DNA from: Cytophagaceae bacterium
GTDB lineage: Bacteria > Bacteroidota > Bacteroidia > Cytophagales > Flexibacteraceae
NCBI GenBank assembly: GCA_947458545.1
Contig: CANGYH010000002.1
Location: 62,001-126,000 of the forward strand
Direction of reading: 5' to 3'
Length of the DNA: 64,000 nt
The notes beneath the pieces are model-generated. The model was given only the letters and a program-made list of their open reading frames with translations, did not search any database and was not told the DNA's origin. Shown one piece after another: positions 37,308 to 51,758 of the stretch; the stretch's first letter is position 1; the number at the start of each line of letters is the position of its first letter. The position numbers and the translations under genes are program-made.

Positions 37308-38225
37308 GTGGAGGCCCCCGCCAGCCAGGCCCAGCATCCCCGCCTGCAAGACTATGGCTTGCTGCACTTCATCGTGCTGCTGTGGGGTTTCACGGCCTTG
37401 TTGGGGATGGCCCTGGCCCCCCTCACCCCCAACGAGGTAGTTTTTTGGCGGACGCTGGCCGCCGCCCTGGCCATGTGGGCCTTATTTGGCCGCCGCATCA
37501 GCCGGCAGCCTATGGGTACGCCCAGGCTTTGGGCCATCTTGGGCACTGGTACCTTGATAGCTATCCACTGGTGGTTGTTCTTTCTGGCGGCCAGGGTAGG
37601 TAACGTAAGCTCCTGCCTGGCAGGCATAGCCACCGGCTCCGTCTGGACGGCCCTGTTAGAGCCCGTGGTAGACCGGCGCCGAATCCGCTGGGCAGACCTT
37701 GCCACCGCCGTCGTGGTCTGCCTTGGCCTGCTGGTCATTTTCGCAGGCCAGGCCGACAAAGCCTGGGGTGTTGCCATTGGCATAGCATCGGCGCTTTTCT
37801 CTAGCCTTTTCGGGCTTTGCAACCGCTACTTTGTGCGGTCTGGGTCAGACGTGTTTGCCATTTCAACGGTGGGCCTCAGCGGCGCATTTGTTACCACGGC
37901 CTTCATGCTGCCGCTTTCGGCCTGGGCCGGGTTTCAGCCCACGGTATGGCCGGCCCTGCCTCAAGGATCGGCCTGGCTGTGGCTGTTTCTGCTGAGCGGG
38001 GTGTGTACTGTATTTGCGCTAACGGCTTCGGTGGCGCTGCTCAGGCGCTTCTCTGCCTTCAGCACCTCGCTTGCCATCAATATGGAGCCCGTTTACGGCA
38101 TCTTGGCAGCCCGCCTGCTGCTGGGCCAAACAGAGGCCATGACACCGGCCTTTTACCTAGGCACGGCCGTCATCTTGCTGGCGGTGCTCGGGCACCCGTT
38201 GCTGCTGGCCCGGCAAAATGCCTAG
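37308..38225 (+). CDS. EamA/DMT-family transporter
   Basis: A 305-residue permease with about ten membrane helices in two EamA repeats. The first repeat starts FIVLLWGFTALLGM and the second LFSSLFGLCNRYFVRS, with a late NMEPVYGILAARLLLG that is typical of EamA. Members export amino acids or metabolites; the substrate is unknown. The start is a GTG. It lies downstream of glmM and ends before the XrtF promoter. Confidence 0.88.
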   Translation: MEAPASQAQHPRLQDYGLLHFIVLLWGFTALLGMALAPLTPNEVVFWRTLAAALAMWALFGRRISRQPMGTPRLWAILGTGTLIAIHWWLFFLAARVGNVSSCLAGIATGSVWTALLEPVVDRRRIRWADLATAVVVCLGLLVIFAGQADKAWGVAIGIASALFSSLFGLCNRYFVRSGSDVFAISTVGLSGAFVTTAFMLPLSAWAGFQPTVWPALPQGSAWLWLFLLSGVCTVFALTASVALLRRFSAFSTSLAINMEPVYGILAARLLLGQTEAMTPAFYLGTAVILLAVLGHPLLLARQNA

Positions 38226-38232
38226 CCGTAGC

Positions 38233-38262
38233 TTTTGCTGCTGTCTGCTACCTTTACTTTTG
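38233..38262 (+). promoter_or_regulatory. Promoter of the XrtF genes
   Basis: TTTTG at 38233-38237, 17 bases, then TACTTTTG (full TAnnTTTG match) at 38255-38262. A palindrome (CGCAG...CTGCG, 38267-38293) follows in the leader and could be an operator or hairpin. Confidence 0.55.
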
Positions 38263-38341
38263 CAAGCGCAGGTCTGCAGGCCTGCAAACTGCGGCTTTAA
38301 CCTTATTTTTCGGTAGTACCCCCTCCTCATTTAGCTACCCC

Positions 38342-38932
38342 ATGCGCCAAAACAAAGTCCTTATTCGCTTCCTGCTCACGGCGGGTGTGCTCTATGTCGT
38401 GTGGGACTATTTCTATAAGTCTGTACTAGAGGAGGACGGCGTGTTCATCCGGCAGGTAGCCTCCCACGTAGCCAAGGTGTCTGTGGCAGTGCTGCAGCTC
38501 TTCGGGTGGGACGCCGCCGTGCGGCCCTATCCGTACCCCAGCGGCCTCAGCTTCGACACGCTCATCACCCTCAATGGCCAGTCTTTGGTTTGGATAGATT
38601 CAGGCTGCACCGGGCTTACCCTGATGGCCCTGTTTGCGGGCTTCATCATAGCCTACCCAGGCCCGTTGGCTAAAAAGGCCTGGTATATTCCGGTGGGTTT
38701 GCTGGCCATCTACCTGGTCAACATTGTCCGCGTGGTGGCGCTGGCCATCAACCACATCGTCAGCCAATCCAGCTTCGACTTCAACCACAAGTACACCTAC
38801 ACGCTGGCCACCTATGTAGCCATCCTGGCCTTGTGGATGTTGTGGGCCAACCGGCTCAGCGGTTTCTCGCTGGCAGGCGAGGCCGAGGAGCCTGCCGAGC
38901 AAGAGCAAGACAAAACCCCGCAGGCATCTTAG
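38342..38932 (+). CDS. xrtF: Exosortase-family protein XrtF
   Basis: A 196-residue membrane protein of the exosortase/archaeosortase superfamily. The catalytic residues are in place: Cys89 in IDSGCTGL, Arg130 in NIVRVVAL and His149 in FNHKYTY. About five membrane helices are predicted. The short size and the adjacent partner gene match the Bacteroidota XrtF type. Exosortases process C-terminal sorting signals of exported proteins; the XrtF substrate is not established, as far as I know. The ATG at 38342 gives the normal N terminus. Confidence 0.9.
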   Translation: MRQNKVLIRFLLTAGVLYVVWDYFYKSVLEEDGVFIRQVASHVAKVSVAVLQLFGWDAAVRPYPYPSGLSFDTLITLNGQSLVWIDSGCTGLTLMALFAGFIIAYPGPLAKKAWYIPVGLLAIYLVNIVRVVALAINHIVSQSSFDFNHKYTYTLATYVAILALWMLWANRLSGFSLAGEAEEPAEQEQDKTPQAS

Positions 38933-38936
38933 CGCC

Positions 38937-39434
38937 GTGGCTAAAAATTGGCGCTTGTGGGCGGGGTGGGGGTTGCTGGCCCTGTTGTTTGCCATAGTAC
39001 AGTTTGCCAAAGAGCTATGGCTATGGCTGGCATACCGGGCCTATTATGCCTTGTTTTGGCGCCCCATCGGTGCCCCGCTAGAGTATCTGGAGAAGCGCAT
39101 AGGCTGGCAGGTGTACCATGGGGAGTTTTGGGGCAAGGTGCTTTACAGTGCCCTTGTGCTTGTGGTGATGGCAGCCAGTATCTGGTTTTTTGGGCGCAAC
39201 CGGGCAGAGCGTAAGCTGTGTTACAGCCTGTTGGCTCTGGCCTGGGGCGTAACCATAGCAGCCAACGTGGGTAGTAAACTGTTGCAAAGCCACTGGCTGC
39301 AAACCTTTAGCCGCGATACGCTGGAAGTTCTTACCTCGCCTTTTCCGGTAATTTTCATGCTGCCCATGCTCGTTTTGTACCGGAAGACGGCCACAAGCGC
39401 CGCCAAAGGGGCTGGCACCCGCGGCAGAAGTTAA
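38937..39434 (+). CDS. Exosortase F system-associated membrane protein
   Basis: A 165-residue protein with four or so membrane helices (from about residues 8-30, 60-85, 95-115 and 135-155 in outline), starting with a GTG four bases after xrtF. This size and position match the family that always stands next to XrtF. Its role is unknown; a co-factor or chaperone for exosortase action is an inference from co-occurrence. Charged residues at the end suggest a cytoplasmic tail. Confidence 0.8.
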   Translation: MAKNWRLWAGWGLLALLFAIVQFAKELWLWLAYRAYYALFWRPIGAPLEYLEKRIGWQVYHGEFWGKVLYSALVLVVMAASIWFFGRNRAERKLCYSLLALAWGVTIAANVGSKLLQSHWLQTFSRDTLEVLTSPFPVIFMLPMLVLYRKTATSAAKGAGTRGRS

Positions 39435-39502
39435 AAAAGGGCTTTGCCCACACATGTAATATACCCACGCTGCGTGGCCTGGTGGCGCGCTAAGGCTGAT
39501 TC

Positions 39503-39510
39503 TAAGTTTG
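39503..39510 (+). promoter_or_regulatory. -7 box for the AP2-domain gene
   Basis: TAAGTTTG is a full TAnnTTTG match, 23 bases before the ATG at 39534. Confidence 0.4.
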
Positions 39511-39533
39511 TTTCAGTCTTTTACCAGCCGCCT

Positions 39534-40112
39534 ATGCTCTATAAGATTACGCTAAAGAATTCTGACAAGACAGTCATGCTTTCAGAGGATGGGTACAAAC
39601 TCATCGCCGACAACCCCTACCTGCAATCGATAGATTTTCTAAAGAATCTACGGATGCACTCCAACGGATACGCCTTCTACCAGAAGAACCATCCTGACAA
39701 GAACGGGGGCTATCGCAACGAGACCATCTATCTGCACAAGTACCTGGCCGAAACCTTGTTGGAGCGTCCGTCGAGCGACGAGCAGCTGTACGTCATGTTC
39801 AAGAACTCTAACCGGCTAGACTGCCGCACCGAGAACCTGGAGTGGGCCAGCCGTTCGATCATCACGCGCAACACCAAAAAGAACACCAGCAAAAGCGGGT
39901 ATCGCGGCGTTTACCAAGACGGTAACAGCTACCGCGCCACCCTGTACAAAGGCAAAGAGCGCTTCGAGCTCGGCTTTTTCAAGTCGGCCGAAGAAGCCGC
40001 CAAGGCCTATAATGCCAAGAGCGAGGAGCTCTTCGGCAAGACCCGATCGCTCAACGCTGTCGGCCACGAGGCAGATCCTTTCTCGGCCGACGATCTGGCC
40101 GGCGATCTGTAG
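39534..40112 (+). CDS. AP2-domain DNA-binding protein with degenerate HNH module
   Basis: A 192-residue protein. Residues 70-110 follow the layout of HNH endonucleases found with AP2 domains (IYLHKYLAETLLERP, NRLDCRTENLEWAS), but the usual catalytic NH in the middle is replaced by VMFKNSN. Residues 117-172 form an AP2-type DNA-binding domain (SGYRGVYQDGNSYRATLY, LGFFKSAEEAAKAY). The family comes from homing endonucleases; loss of the key histidine suggests a domesticated DNA-binding protein. Start chosen at 39534 for the promoter and the Met. Confidence 0.8.
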   Translation: MLYKITLKNSDKTVMLSEDGYKLIADNPYLQSIDFLKNLRMHSNGYAFYQKNHPDKNGGYRNETIYLHKYLAETLLERPSSDEQLYVMFKNSNRLDCRTENLEWASRSIITRNTKKNTSKSGYRGVYQDGNSYRATLYKGKERFELGFFKSAEEAAKAYNAKSEELFGKTRSLNAVGHEADPFSADDLAGDL

Positions 40113-40372: not shown

Positions 40373-41434
40373 ATGACCCAGGCCTCGCACACCGTTTTGC
40401 CCGGCGCCGACAAACTGGCCCGGCTCCCCTTCAACCCTGAATTTACGCCTGGGGCCTTCAGCGCCATCAACACCTGCCTGCGCCTGCAGCCAGCCGAGAC
40501 GATCACCATCATCACCGACGAGGCCAGCAAAGAAATTGCCGCCTCCCTCTACGCAGAGGTGCTGAAGGTTGGCAGCCGCTGCCACGCCATCATACTGGAA
40601 GACTACCTGCCCCGCCCTACCAAGGTAATGCCCCAAGAGGCCCTGGATGCGCTCGAAGAAAGCCAAGTCTCCATCTTCTGCGCCCAGGCCCAGACGGGCG
40701 AGCTGGCCGCCCGCAGGCAAATGTCAGACGTGGTGAACCGCCGCCGCATCCGCCACGGGCATATGGTCAACATCAATGCGCAGATTATGGTAGAGGGTAT
40801 GCGGGCCGACTTTCTGGCCGTAGACCGCCTCAGCCAGCAGTTGATTGACCGCGCCCGGCAAGCCCGCACCATCACCGTTAAAACCAAGCTCGGCACAGAC
40901 CTGACGGCCACCTTTGTGCCTGAGCTCAAGTGGCTCAAAACGAGCGGCATCATCTCGCCAGACAAGTGGGGTAACCTGCCCGGCGGCGAGATCTTCACCA
41001 GCCCCTTGCGGGTAGATGGCACCTTTGTGGTAGATGGCGTGGTAGGAGACTACCTCTGCGAGAAATACGGCGTGCTCGACAAAACCCCGCTCACCATAGA
41101 GATCGTTGACAGCCGTATCGTACAGATGCACTGCGACAACAAGACGTTGCTGGACGAGTTTAACGCCTATACCCATACCGACGAGAACTCTGACCGGGTA
41201 GGAGAGTTTGCCATCGGCACCAACCTGGCCGTGAAGAAGGCCATAGGCCACATACTGCAAGACGAGAAGCTGCCCACTCTCCACATGGCCTTCGGCCACC
41301 CATATGCTGAACATACCGGAGCCAACTGGGCCAGCTCTACGCACATTGACTGTGTGGCCCAGCATTGCTCCATCTGGTTCGACGGCGAAGAGATCATGCA
41401 CGAAGGCGTGTTTACGTTTCCGCATACGCTGTAA
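40373..41434 (+). CDS. M29-like (aminopeptidase T/AmpS-type) metallopeptidase
   Basis: A 353-residue protein that resembles the M29 thermophilic aminopeptidase family. Expected metal ligands appear in order: LPGGEIFTS, GEFAIGTN, HMAFGHPYAEH and STHIDCV. It is about 50 residues shorter than typical M29 enzymes. It would remove N-terminal residues from peptides using two metal ions. It is alone, ending at the start of a repeat-rich region. The assignment rests on these motifs only. Confidence 0.82.
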   Translation: MTQASHTVLPGADKLARLPFNPEFTPGAFSAINTCLRLQPAETITIITDEASKEIAASLYAEVLKVGSRCHAIILEDYLPRPTKVMPQEALDALEESQVSIFCAQAQTGELAARRQMSDVVNRRRIRHGHMVNINAQIMVEGMRADFLAVDRLSQQLIDRARQARTITVKTKLGTDLTATFVPELKWLKTSGIISPDKWGNLPGGEIFTSPLRVDGTFVVDGVVGDYLCEKYGVLDKTPLTIEIVDSRIVQMHCDNKTLLDEFNAYTHTDENSDRVGEFAIGTNLAVKKAIGHILQDEKLPTLHMAFGHPYAEHTGANWASSTHIDCVAQHCSIWFDGEEIMHEGVFTFPHTL

Positions 41435-49172: not shown

Positions 49173-51758
49173 ATGAAGAGACACGCTACCTTCTTTTCGC
49201 TATTTGCCCTGTTGCTTACAATAGGCGTTTACCACGCCGCTCAGGCGCAAACGTCGCCCATAGAGACCAACCATTGGTACTTTGGCCGCCAGGCAGGGTT
49301 GCGGTTTGTGCCCCCCGGCCCCAACGGCCGCCCGGTACCCCTAAACGATGCCACCAACCTGAATGCATTTGAGGGCACTGCGGCAATCTCTAACCTGCGC
49401 GGCCGCCTACTATTCTATGTAGGCTCACGGGCCGCTGGCGACGATTTCGCCACCGTCTTTAACCGCCGCCACGAGCCTATGCTTGGCGGATCAGACATTC
49501 AGGGCGGTTCATCTTCAACGCAGAACGCCCTCATTGTGCGCCAGCCGGGCAATACCCCCAACTACTTCATTTTTCAGGTAGCCCAGGTAGAGAACTACGG
49601 CAGCGCCAACCCGGGCCTAGGCACGGGCTTCTATTATTCCATCGTAGATACCACCCGCGGCATAGACCCCGCCACCAACGAGCCTCTGGGTGAGGTCGTC
49701 GTGCGCGATCAGATGCTTTTCGACTCTACCACAGAGAAGGTCTCTGCCGTTATGCACCGCAACGGCCGCTGGATCTGGATCATGGGCCACCGCCGGTTTA
49801 CCAACGAGTGGATGGCCTTCCTGCTGACGGAAAATGGTGTCGATCCTCAACCCGTCATTTCTCGCGTTGGTCGTGTGCATACACAGTGCCGTGGCGCGCT
49901 CAAGTTCTCGCCCAATGGCAACCGTGTGGCCTGCGCCCTTACTGAGCCCGAGAGCGGTGGCCACTGGGCACAGGTTGCGCAGTTCAACAACCTAACCGGC
50001 GAGGTATTTGACCTTGTGGAACTCCCCATCCGGGCTACGGGTACTGGTTTCTCCGTCTATGGCGTGGACTTTAGCCCAGACAACAGCAAGCTTTATATCG
50101 GAGACAGGTCCTTCAACGCCCGCGGCATTTACCAGTGGGATATGTGCGCCGGCACTAGCCAGGCCATCATCGCAAGCCGAGCTACCCGCACCACAACCTT
50201 TGAGCCGGGCCAGTTGCAGTTGGGCCTAGACGGTGCCATCTACATCTCTAAGGTAGGTGCCTCAACCTCGCTGGCCGCCTTTACGTCACCCAACGAGAAT
50301 ATGGCCGCCGCCGGTTTTGATGCCACCTACATCCAGCTTCTGCCCGGCACAACGGCAGACCGTGGCCTGACCAACGTGAACCAGTCGGCCTTCAACCGCC
50401 TCGCCCCGGTGATGCAATACACCAACCTCTGCGAGAACGACAGCACGCAGTTTGCCGCCGAGGCCCAATGCCAAGGCATTGTAGCCACCTATACCTGGGA
50501 CTTTGGCGACCCTGCCTCTGGCGCGGCCAACACCAGCACAGCCCAGGCACCCCGCCACCGTTTTACGGCTCCGGGCCGCTACAACGTCCGCCTCGTGGTA
50601 AATGCCGGCAACTATGTAGACTCAGTTGACGAAGACATCGTGATCACGGCGCGCCCCCGCGGCCGGGTGCGCTACAACAAACTCTCTTGCTTTGGCGCCG
50701 CCAACTATACCTATCTGCAAGACACCGCCCGCCCCAACAACGTAACCATCACCGACTACTGGTGGAACGCTCGCGGCATTGCCGACACCATCTTGGAGGG
50801 CAGCAGCTTCGACCGCATTCAGCTTAGCTGGAACCGCAACCAGAACGTGGACTTCCGCGTCATCACTGCTAGCACCACCAGCATCGGCGAGAAGTGCTGG
50901 TCTGATACGATCCGCTACCGCGTCGTCGTAAACCAAGTGCGCGGTGGCGCCATCACCGGCCCCGATACCGTCTGCCTGGATCCTGAGGTGCCCTTCGTAT
51001 TCACCTCGTCAGACTCTATCCGTACCTCTTACAACTGGGTTTATGGCCCAGATCCACAAGACGGCACACAGTCGGGCCAGGGTACCCGCCAATTCTCGAT
51101 TCTGAACCCCACGCCTGGGAATAAAACCCTCCGCGTTGGCTTCTTGCTCGACACCCTGAACATGACCTGCTTCCAGCCCTCGCCCGAGAAGACCTTCTTT
51201 GTGGCGACGCCTGCCGAAGGAAACATCTTCGTCAACGGAGACTCTTCCGTCTGCGAAATCAACACCATCCGCTACCGCAGCTTTGGCCGCTCGCGTACCT
51301 CTCGCGTGCTGTGGGGCTTCGAGAAAGCCCCTGGTGCGGGAGGCAACATCTCCTTCTTGTCAGACACGCTGGCAGATACCGTACGTGTGCTCTACAACGG
51401 CCTAAGCTTCGGGCGCGACAAGTACTACATCACCGCTACGGAAGTTTCTAAAGACGGCTGTAAGGCCCCACCCGTCAAGAAAGAGATATGGAACGCCTGT
51501 CTGAATTTCGGCTCGCTGGTTACAAAGCAGAACGTTGACGGTAAAAACGACAATTTCCAGATTGAGAACATTGAGAACTTCCCAGATAACGAAGTATCTC
51601 TGTACAACCGCTGGGGTGCCCGCGTCTTTACGGCCAAAGGCTTTAAGAACAGCGACGTTACGGGTAACCTGGAGCCAGGTACCTATTTCTACCACATCCG
51701 CGTACAGTGGGAAGGCCGCAACCTGGAGCGCCGCGGCTGGGTAGAGATTATGCAATAA
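49173..51758 (+). CDS. PKD-domain surface protein with type IX (CHU_C) sorting domain
   Basis: An 861-residue exported protein. The signal peptide ends near AAQAQ; the start is at 49173. The first half resembles the HWYFGRQAGLRF family of Bacteroidota surface proteins with beta-propeller-like repeats (VDFSPDNSKLYIG). A PKD domain with YTWDFGDPAS is near residue 440. The C terminus has the sorting domain in short form (VSLYNRWGARVF, PGTYFYHIRV). It is probably exported by the type IX system like the protein at the left edge. Role unknown. Confidence 0.88.
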   Translation: MKRHATFFSLFALLLTIGVYHAAQAQTSPIETNHWYFGRQAGLRFVPPGPNGRPVPLNDATNLNAFEGTAAISNLRGRLLFYVGSRAAGDDFATVFNRRHEPMLGGSDIQGGSSSTQNALIVRQPGNTPNYFIFQVAQVENYGSANPGLGTGFYYSIVDTTRGIDPATNEPLGEVVVRDQMLFDSTTEKVSAVMHRNGRWIWIMGHRRFTNEWMAFLLTENGVDPQPVISRVGRVHTQCRGALKFSPNGNRVACALTEPESGGHWAQVAQFNNLTGEVFDLVELPIRATGTGFSVYGVDFSPDNSKLYIGDRSFNARGIYQWDMCAGTSQAIIASRATRTTTFEPGQLQLGLDGAIYISKVGASTSLAAFTSPNENMAAAGFDATYIQLLPGTTADRGLTNVNQSAFNRLAPVMQYTNLCENDSTQFAAEAQCQGIVATYTWDFGDPASGAANTSTAQAPRHRFTAPGRYNVRLVVNAGNYVDSVDEDIVITARPRGRVRYNKLSCFGAANYTYLQDTARPNNVTITDYWWNARGIADTILEGSSFDRIQLSWNRNQNVDFRVITASTTSIGEKCWSDTIRYRVVVNQVRGGAITGPDTVCLDPEVPFVFTSSDSIRTSYNWVYGPDPQDGTQSGQGTRQFSILNPTPGNKTLRVGFLLDTLNMTCFQPSPEKTFFVATPAEGNIFVNGDSSVCEINTIRYRSFGRSRTSRVLWGFEKAPGAGGNISFLSDTLADTVRVLYNGLSFGRDKYYITATEVSKDGCKAPPVKKEIWNACLNFGSLVTKQNVDGKNDNFQIENIENFPDNEVSLYNRWGARVFTAKGFKNSDVTGNLEPGTYFYHIRVQWEGRNLERRGWVEIMQ

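Follow-up and report, generated by a model that had tools for sequence, protein, structure and literature searches.

In the PEP-CTERM/EpsH and archaeosortase systems, the sorting signal consists of a motif, a helix and a basic tail, and the sorted protein is cleaved and transferred to another molecule. The same order of motif, helix and basic tail, again with cleavage and transfer, is given for the GlyGly-CTERM signal of rhombosortase (as cited in PMC7468200). For the XrtF exosortase of the Bacteroidota, the sole knock-out study that we found concerns Flavobacterium johnsoniae, in which deletion of xrtF or of its partner gene resulted in much less biofilm and no zorbs with colony spreading retained, and, in the passages of that paper on these mutants, spreading was stopped only by the deletion of sprA (PMC10936215). 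The porU and porZ deletions gave the same row of phenotypes, and the porV deletion also behaved like xrtF, apart from its effect on the expansion of B. cereus (PMC10936215). Type-A cargo is carried by PorV (PMC10994853), and the phenotypes fit an exosortase that serves type-A adhesins and not secretion as such. The xrtF phenotypes are not specific to the T9SS, because mutants of Fjoh_0334 and Fjoh_0651 share them, and the poor colonisation of sand by the xrtF deletion is blamed by the authors on growth on sand rather than on initial attachment (PMC10936215). The original prediction for the locus described here stated that the target of XrtF is not established, in agreement with passages of PMC10936215 and PMC12188702, the former of which leaves the XrtF substrates to future work.

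The window, that is, the whole 64-kb stretch of DNA that was analysed (contig C2, 62001-126000, of a genome of 3.23 Mb), carries on its forward strand an exosortase gene at 38342..38932, with an ATG start and a product of 196 aa, followed after four bases by a gene for a membrane protein at 38937..39434, with a GTG start and a product of 165 aa. The exosortase had been named XrtF, and this identity was rejected on the profile scores: the protein reaches 81 bits on TIGR04128 (XrtF), below the cut-off of 90, and 182.2 bits on NF046081 (XrtX), above the cut-off of 170. The full Cys-Arg-His triad and the spacing of the partner, both part of the same prediction, were confirmed, since Cys89, Arg130 and His149 are invariant in 15/15 aligned sequences (the window XrtX and 14 relatives), as is the string FDFNHKYT, and the xrtX stop at 38932 is followed by the partner start at 38937. 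The start of xrtX at 38342 is supported by the N-terminal Met of the relatives, which aligns there, and for this reason a longer frame opening at 37817 was set aside. An AlphaFold model of the window XrtX had a pLDDT of 82.8; a fold search of the PDB with this model returned nothing under an E of 0.001, and the best hit of phmmer with the protein had an E of only 0.45. The partner matches NF046082, the XrtX-associated membrane protein, with 32.7 bits, below the cut-off of 75, over positions 4-147 of the 147 in the profile, and this was its sole match at E up to 0.001. By sequence, the window pair is an XrtX-type exosortase with a small membrane partner.

The promoter and the leader palindrome that had been described for this pair are also present as anatomy. 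The EamA-type gene upstream of xrtX ends at 38225, and the gap is occupied by a putative promoter on the forward strand, predicted by string match (TTTG-N17-TACTTTTG, 38234..38262; we take this form to be the Bacteroidota-type consensus), and by a near-perfect palindrome at 38268..38285, in which a repeat search found two overlapping 12-nt arms that are 92% complementary. The pattern TTTGN{14,20}TANNTTTG has its sole match of the 64 kb in this leader, with 0.68 matches expected by chance on both strands and a spacing range chosen after the leader had been inspected. A sigma-70 scan gave nothing on the forward strand near the xrtX start. Behind the pair, a gene at 39444-40112 encodes a 222-aa protein that matches HNH_3 above the cut-off and AP2 weakly, and it lies outside the conserved neighbourhood of the relatives; at 40373-41434 there is a 353-aa protein, residues 162-314 of which partially match the M29 metallopeptidase family.

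In the original prediction no substrate was visible, and a genome-wide search for a shared motif, helix and basic tail was proposed. For the window this view stands, as a six-frame search for P-x-[DEN]-G-G found no such sorting tail in it; for the genome it does not, as four PID-CTERM-type mini-proteins of 64-93 aa turned up and candidate substrates thus exist. Three of them exceed the NF046080 cut-off of 26, namely those at C8:45362 (44.4 bits), at C1:1706774 (39.4 bits) and at C1:1298234 (33.9 bits, and 31.9 bits in another scan), and the fourth, which has PADGG, lies below it (C1:885918, 22.9 bits). The mini at C1:1298234 is 93 aa long; its hydrophobic N-terminus is taken to be a signal peptide, and its tail consists of VPIDGG, helix and basic residues. 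Three of the four, of 64-66 aa, have the common mature stretch ADDPPPIGGSPDPIP[VA]DGG. A plain DNA-level search for P-x-[DE]-G-G across the same genome was of no use, with 14+19 matches, fewer than the 33+45 of a reversed control; of the 33 pattern loci, 30 were inspected by eye, and a helix with a basic tail was seen in just two, both of them known minis. The NCBIfam models NF046080-NF046083 are consecutive, and XrtX and PID-CTERM were therefore evidently meant as a pair by the curators.

The PID-CTERM class consists almost entirely of such small proteins. Of 117 NF046080 matches in 194 genomes of the order, 114 fall in frames that measure no more than 139 codons from stop to stop, so that the class is almost without full-size cargo. 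From the fetched loci of 48 genomes we collected 84 distinct minis by the string P-x-[DEN]-G-G with helix and basic tail, a set that covers part of the 117 matches and in which the GG is fixed in all members by the search string itself. Their architecture comprises a hydrophobic N-terminus, a short stretch rich in Pro, Gly and Asp, the motif P-[IVL]-D-G-G, a hydrophobic helix and a basic tail, with signal peptides and helices judged from hydrophobicity rather than by a trained predictor. With the signal peptide crudely cut off, the mature stretch of the 84 minis up to the motif has a median of 15 residues (range 2-60). A rare large PID-like carrier, outside this set by its VPIDGE-type tail, was found in one locus (L210, G030:C1:2167132-2167203) as a hydrophobic, multi-span-looking protein of 995 codons ending in VPIDGEVWVLLAGG. 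Judged by their sequences, the PID-CTERM minis of the genome are probable substrates of XrtX.

The genome encodes a second XrtX-like enzyme at C1:1297540-1298025, which scores 143.1 bits on NF046081, below the cut-off of 170. In its locus (L047, 7339-12902, contig C1) T9SS-tailed genes stand on both flanks, and a PID mini sits between one T9SS cargo and the enzyme. In a midpoint-rooted tree of 46 enzymes, the window XrtX groups with copies of the same family (G113, G138 and G027; 95/82) and, one step out, its clade joins copies from G043, G072, G085, G099 and G126 (98/91); the second enzyme groups with the second copies of G043 and G072 (97/86). One XrtX, from a bin recorded as Rickettsiales bacterium (L013), is nested among Marinoscillum copies, and the bin is probably mislabelled. 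An exclusive pairing of XrtX-1 with DDPPP-type minis and of XrtX-2 with Cys-type minis was suggested by G000, G043, G085, G099 and G126, and we keep it only as a lead: against it, Cys-type minis occur in G027, G113 and G138, each with a single XrtX match found, and G072 has both enzymes yet showed the Cys type alone. The window XrtX, rather than the second enzyme, may be the one that handles DDPPP-type minis.

It might be argued that XrtX has a dedicated substrate next to it, the partner itself, which ends in a Pro, a hydrophobic stretch and a basic tail. The two genes are adjacent in many relatives, a gene in the partner position being present in 13/14 of them (in the remaining one, L012, the locus ends there), and the sole invariant residue among 14 partner sequences is P135, ahead of the last hydrophobic stretch, as would be expected of a partner that is the only substrate of the window XrtX. 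We nevertheless consider this very improbable, since in the neighbourhood comparison of relatives no partner gene follows XrtX-2 and G027, G113 and G138 lack one as well, and since 56 of the 57 PID-positive genomes in the survey described below have an XrtX match, which points to the minis as substrates. In three loci (L048, L055 and L057) a conserved gene order puts a partnerless xrtX in line with enoyl-CoA-hydratase-like and CoA-transferase-like genes, named by eye.

The minis in turn are linked to the T9SS by their gene order. Three of the four minis of the genome immediately follow the gene of a large cargo protein that ends in a T9SS type-A tail (TIGR04183), a tail found 90 times in this genome at E up to 0.001, 84 of these over cut-off. 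The three mini-paired cargos score 45.9, 35.7 and 24.7 bits in the genome search, above the cut-off of 23, with the third at 21.1 bits, below it, when scanned as a whole protein. For 57 of the 84 collected minis, a purpose-built profile found a T9SS-tailed gene on the same strand that ends no more than 700 bp upstream of the mini, the median gap being 81 bp; such an upstream gene is found for 39 of 920 other genes, the control being genes of at least 100 aa in 89 fetched loci that are themselves rich in T9SS genes. The paired minis are spread over 20/27 genera and 11/13 families, and 27 of the 84, including one of the four in the genome, have no T9SS gene just upstream. Pairing with xrtX is looser, as 13/46 loci have a PID gene no more than 1 kb away from it. 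The window xrtX has no PID gene nearby, and the nearest T9SS tail, 12.6 kb away, is itself weak and below cut-off (21.2 bits; about 51549-51704 on the forward strand, within an 893-codon frame). Five genomes of the same family have a PorP/SprF-type T9SS gene behind the xrtX-partner pair, and none stands next to the window pair; its identity comes from a family search in one locus (L053), with which the other four were grouped by BLAST.

The cargos paired with the minis belong largely to one type, since 53 of the 57 share a module of about 340 aa just before the T9SS tail, some of the cargos being cut by locus ends. Because the profile of the module was built up from a single seed with none but mini-paired cargos, it leans to them, so that the spread of the module over genomes is the freer test. 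No Pfam or NCBIfam family matched the module at a credible score, the best matches of its members being at E 0.014 and 0.005, one member each. Against the PDB, the profile found the adhesins RemZ (8gl8, E 2.4e-47, residues 702-1026) and RemA (8gl6, E 6.2e-43, residues 1010-1348), which establishes a homology of mini-paired cargos to RemA and RemZ beyond the T9SS tail. In the part of the work on the F. johnsoniae T9SS translocon that describes these structures, only the tail domain is well resolved (PMC10994853), and an AlphaFold model of our module, with a pLDDT of 49.8, was set aside. In the genome studied, eight cargos carry the module, which is followed by a T9SS tail in every one; they include all three that are paired with minis, and behind the other five there is no mini for about 1.2 kb. 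Nine genomes with the module are positive for XrtX and negative for PID; two of them (G036, L225; G130, L234) have a small gene 21-49 bp behind the module cargo, with a hydrophobic N-terminus, a C-terminal helix, a basic tail and a divergent motif, and in the other seven the screen showed no such small tailed gene. In another genome (G226, L268) a module cargo, a PFDGG mini and an exosortase-like gene stand in a row, with TIGR04128 seeing no exosortase there at 1e-12, and in two more (G215, L261; G301, L263) minis with TQTPIGSGL, helix and basic tail lie 120-174 bp behind module cargos and may represent a further signal type.

Such tight gene pairing with one cargo family would also be expected if the minis were export helpers in the inner membrane, docking a chaperone or motor for the cargo encoded upstream, and XrtX released or destroyed them with nothing reaching the surface. 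We regard this as rather improbable, as the xrtF deletion of F. johnsoniae still spreads and, in the passages available, its T9SS is not blocked as it is by the sprA deletion, an observation that is silent on single cargos.

Genomes with and without the enzyme were compared for co-occurring families, as the original prediction had proposed for xrtF. In 194 genomes drawn from the order, with XrtX matches taken at E up to 0.001 (some of them weak) and overlaps counted by hand, XrtX was matched in 72, PID in 57 and both in 56 (Fisher 8e-33, a descriptive value). Of the genomes with XrtX over cut-off, 32/34 have PID, and 16 of the 72 with any XrtX match are without a PID match. The module was surveyed at E up to 1e-15 in 47 hand-picked genomes of the order, and was present in 14/15 with both XrtX and PID, 9/11 with XrtX only and 1/1 with PID only (G088), that is, in 23/26 XrtX-positive genomes. 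The separation is clean in one family (f1), in which the XrtX-positive G000, G043, G085, G099, G113 and G126 have the module and the XrtX-negative G008 and G058 do not; two families are mixed, one (f4) with weak XrtX and no module in G148 and G156, the other (f14) with the module and no XrtX in G088. A second set of 43 hand-picked genomes, mostly from the class and phylum, showed the module in 13/14 XrtF genomes, and in 23/25 with a TIGR04128 match at 1e-12 versus 5/18 without. The general exosortase signature TIGR04178 revealed an enzyme in 4 of those 5 genomes, in 4/33 module-free genomes tried, and none in G088. Over all 90 genomes, the module occurs in 50/59 that are exosortase-positive by any model used versus 2/31 that are negative (Fisher 1.7e-13). 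The association is strong, and the Fisher values are descriptive because the genomes were hand-picked in strata, several exosortase models were mixed and kinship was ignored. The two exceptions with the module and no exosortase found are G088 and G278, and nine exosortase-positive genomes are without the module. Among the module-bearing XrtF genomes, 4/13 (G307, G342, G285 and G245) show a mini directly behind the fetched module cargo.

A more classical role for XrtX would bind the PID minis to exopolysaccharide, their adjacency to T9SS adhesin genes reflecting a shared regulation of surface genes and not a joint machine. Polysaccharide-type genes are indeed seen by eye at XrtX loci, WecA-like in four (L009, L011, L013 and L065) and NeuD-like in three (L077-L079), and, in a cyanobacterium, an exosortase mutant no longer adhered to its own polysaccharide, according to the part of PMC12188702 that deals with it. 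We think this role unlikely, though a serious competitor: the pairing targets a single T9SS cargo family, that of the 53/57 cargos with the module; the module was found in none of 20 genomes negative for both XrtX and PID, although T9SS tails are present in 17 of these at E up to 1e-11, by the dozen in some (48 in G008, of the same family as the source genome); and in F. johnsoniae the knock-outs of porV, porU and porZ resemble that of xrtF in their behaviour, according to the passages of PMC10936215 on these strains.

The function that we propose instead is that XrtX cuts the PID minis into short surface peptides which serve RemA-type T9SS adhesins, and we give it a nearly even chance of being right; what can be read from the sequences themselves is the family of the enzyme, its triad, the mini architecture, the gene pairing and the co-distribution. 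The window XrtX would act as a Cys-Arg-His sorting transpeptidase of the inner membrane together with its small membrane partner, and its substrates would be the PID-CTERM minis from other parts of the genome. After trimming by signal peptidase and XrtX, each mini would be left as a short peptide, and XrtX would pass the new C-terminus of the peptide to a lipid or a glycan, a transfer modelled on archaeosortase and rhombosortase. The peptide would then be carried to the surface, where it would anchor or present the RemA-type adhesin encoded alongside, presumably through contact with the module. In a broader and more tentative form, which we hold to be possible, the exosortases of the Bacteroidota in general (XrtX, XrtF and related enzymes) would constitute an accessory arm of the T9SS whose peptides hold or activate RemA/RemZ-type adhesins. 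If the proposal is true, exosortases are joined to T9SS surface adhesion and biofilm formation, and, if it is true of Bacteroidota exosortases at large, these enzymes are supplied with targets and the RemA/RemZ-type adhesins with an anchor. In either case, the substrate list, the gene-pairing rule and the adhesin module make the targets of Bacteroidota exosortases directly testable.

The pairing of XrtX with PID-CTERM as enzyme and substrate is already implied by the NCBIfam names. In the open-licence literature searched there was no report on PID-CTERM, and the papers naming XrtX, XrtY or XrtN were, judged by title, not about exosortases. Nor did the titles, abstract starts and passages searched in that literature report a link between exosortases and the T9SS, which may have been reported elsewhere; in its passages on the subject, PMC7468200 speculates solely on shared linking sugars. 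The pairing of mini and adhesin genes suggests that two systems of the cell surface are connected in a way not reported in the literature searched.

Compared with known systems, the locus is closest to XrtX/PID-CTERM (NF046081, NF046082 and NF046080), as the enzyme and three of the four minis score above the curated cut-offs; it differs in the window partner, which lies below that of NF046082, and the one-line NCBIfam descriptions make no mention of the T9SS. With the XrtF system of F. johnsoniae (Fjoh_1448/1449) it shares an exosortase with an adjacent membrane partner in the Bacteroidota, and XrtF genomes share the T9SS adhesin module (13/14); unlike XrtF, the window enzyme stays below the TIGR04128 cut-off (81 versus 90), and a mini next to the fetched module cargo is seen in only 4/13 of the module-bearing XrtF genomes. 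The paired cargos resemble the T9SS adhesins RemA and RemZ in having a type-A tail preceded by a shared region of about 340 aa, the comparison covering module and tail. Finally, the PEP-CTERM/EpsH, archaeosortase and rhombosortase systems sort full-size proteins, in contrast to the PID class with its 114/117 matches in frames of 139 codons or less.
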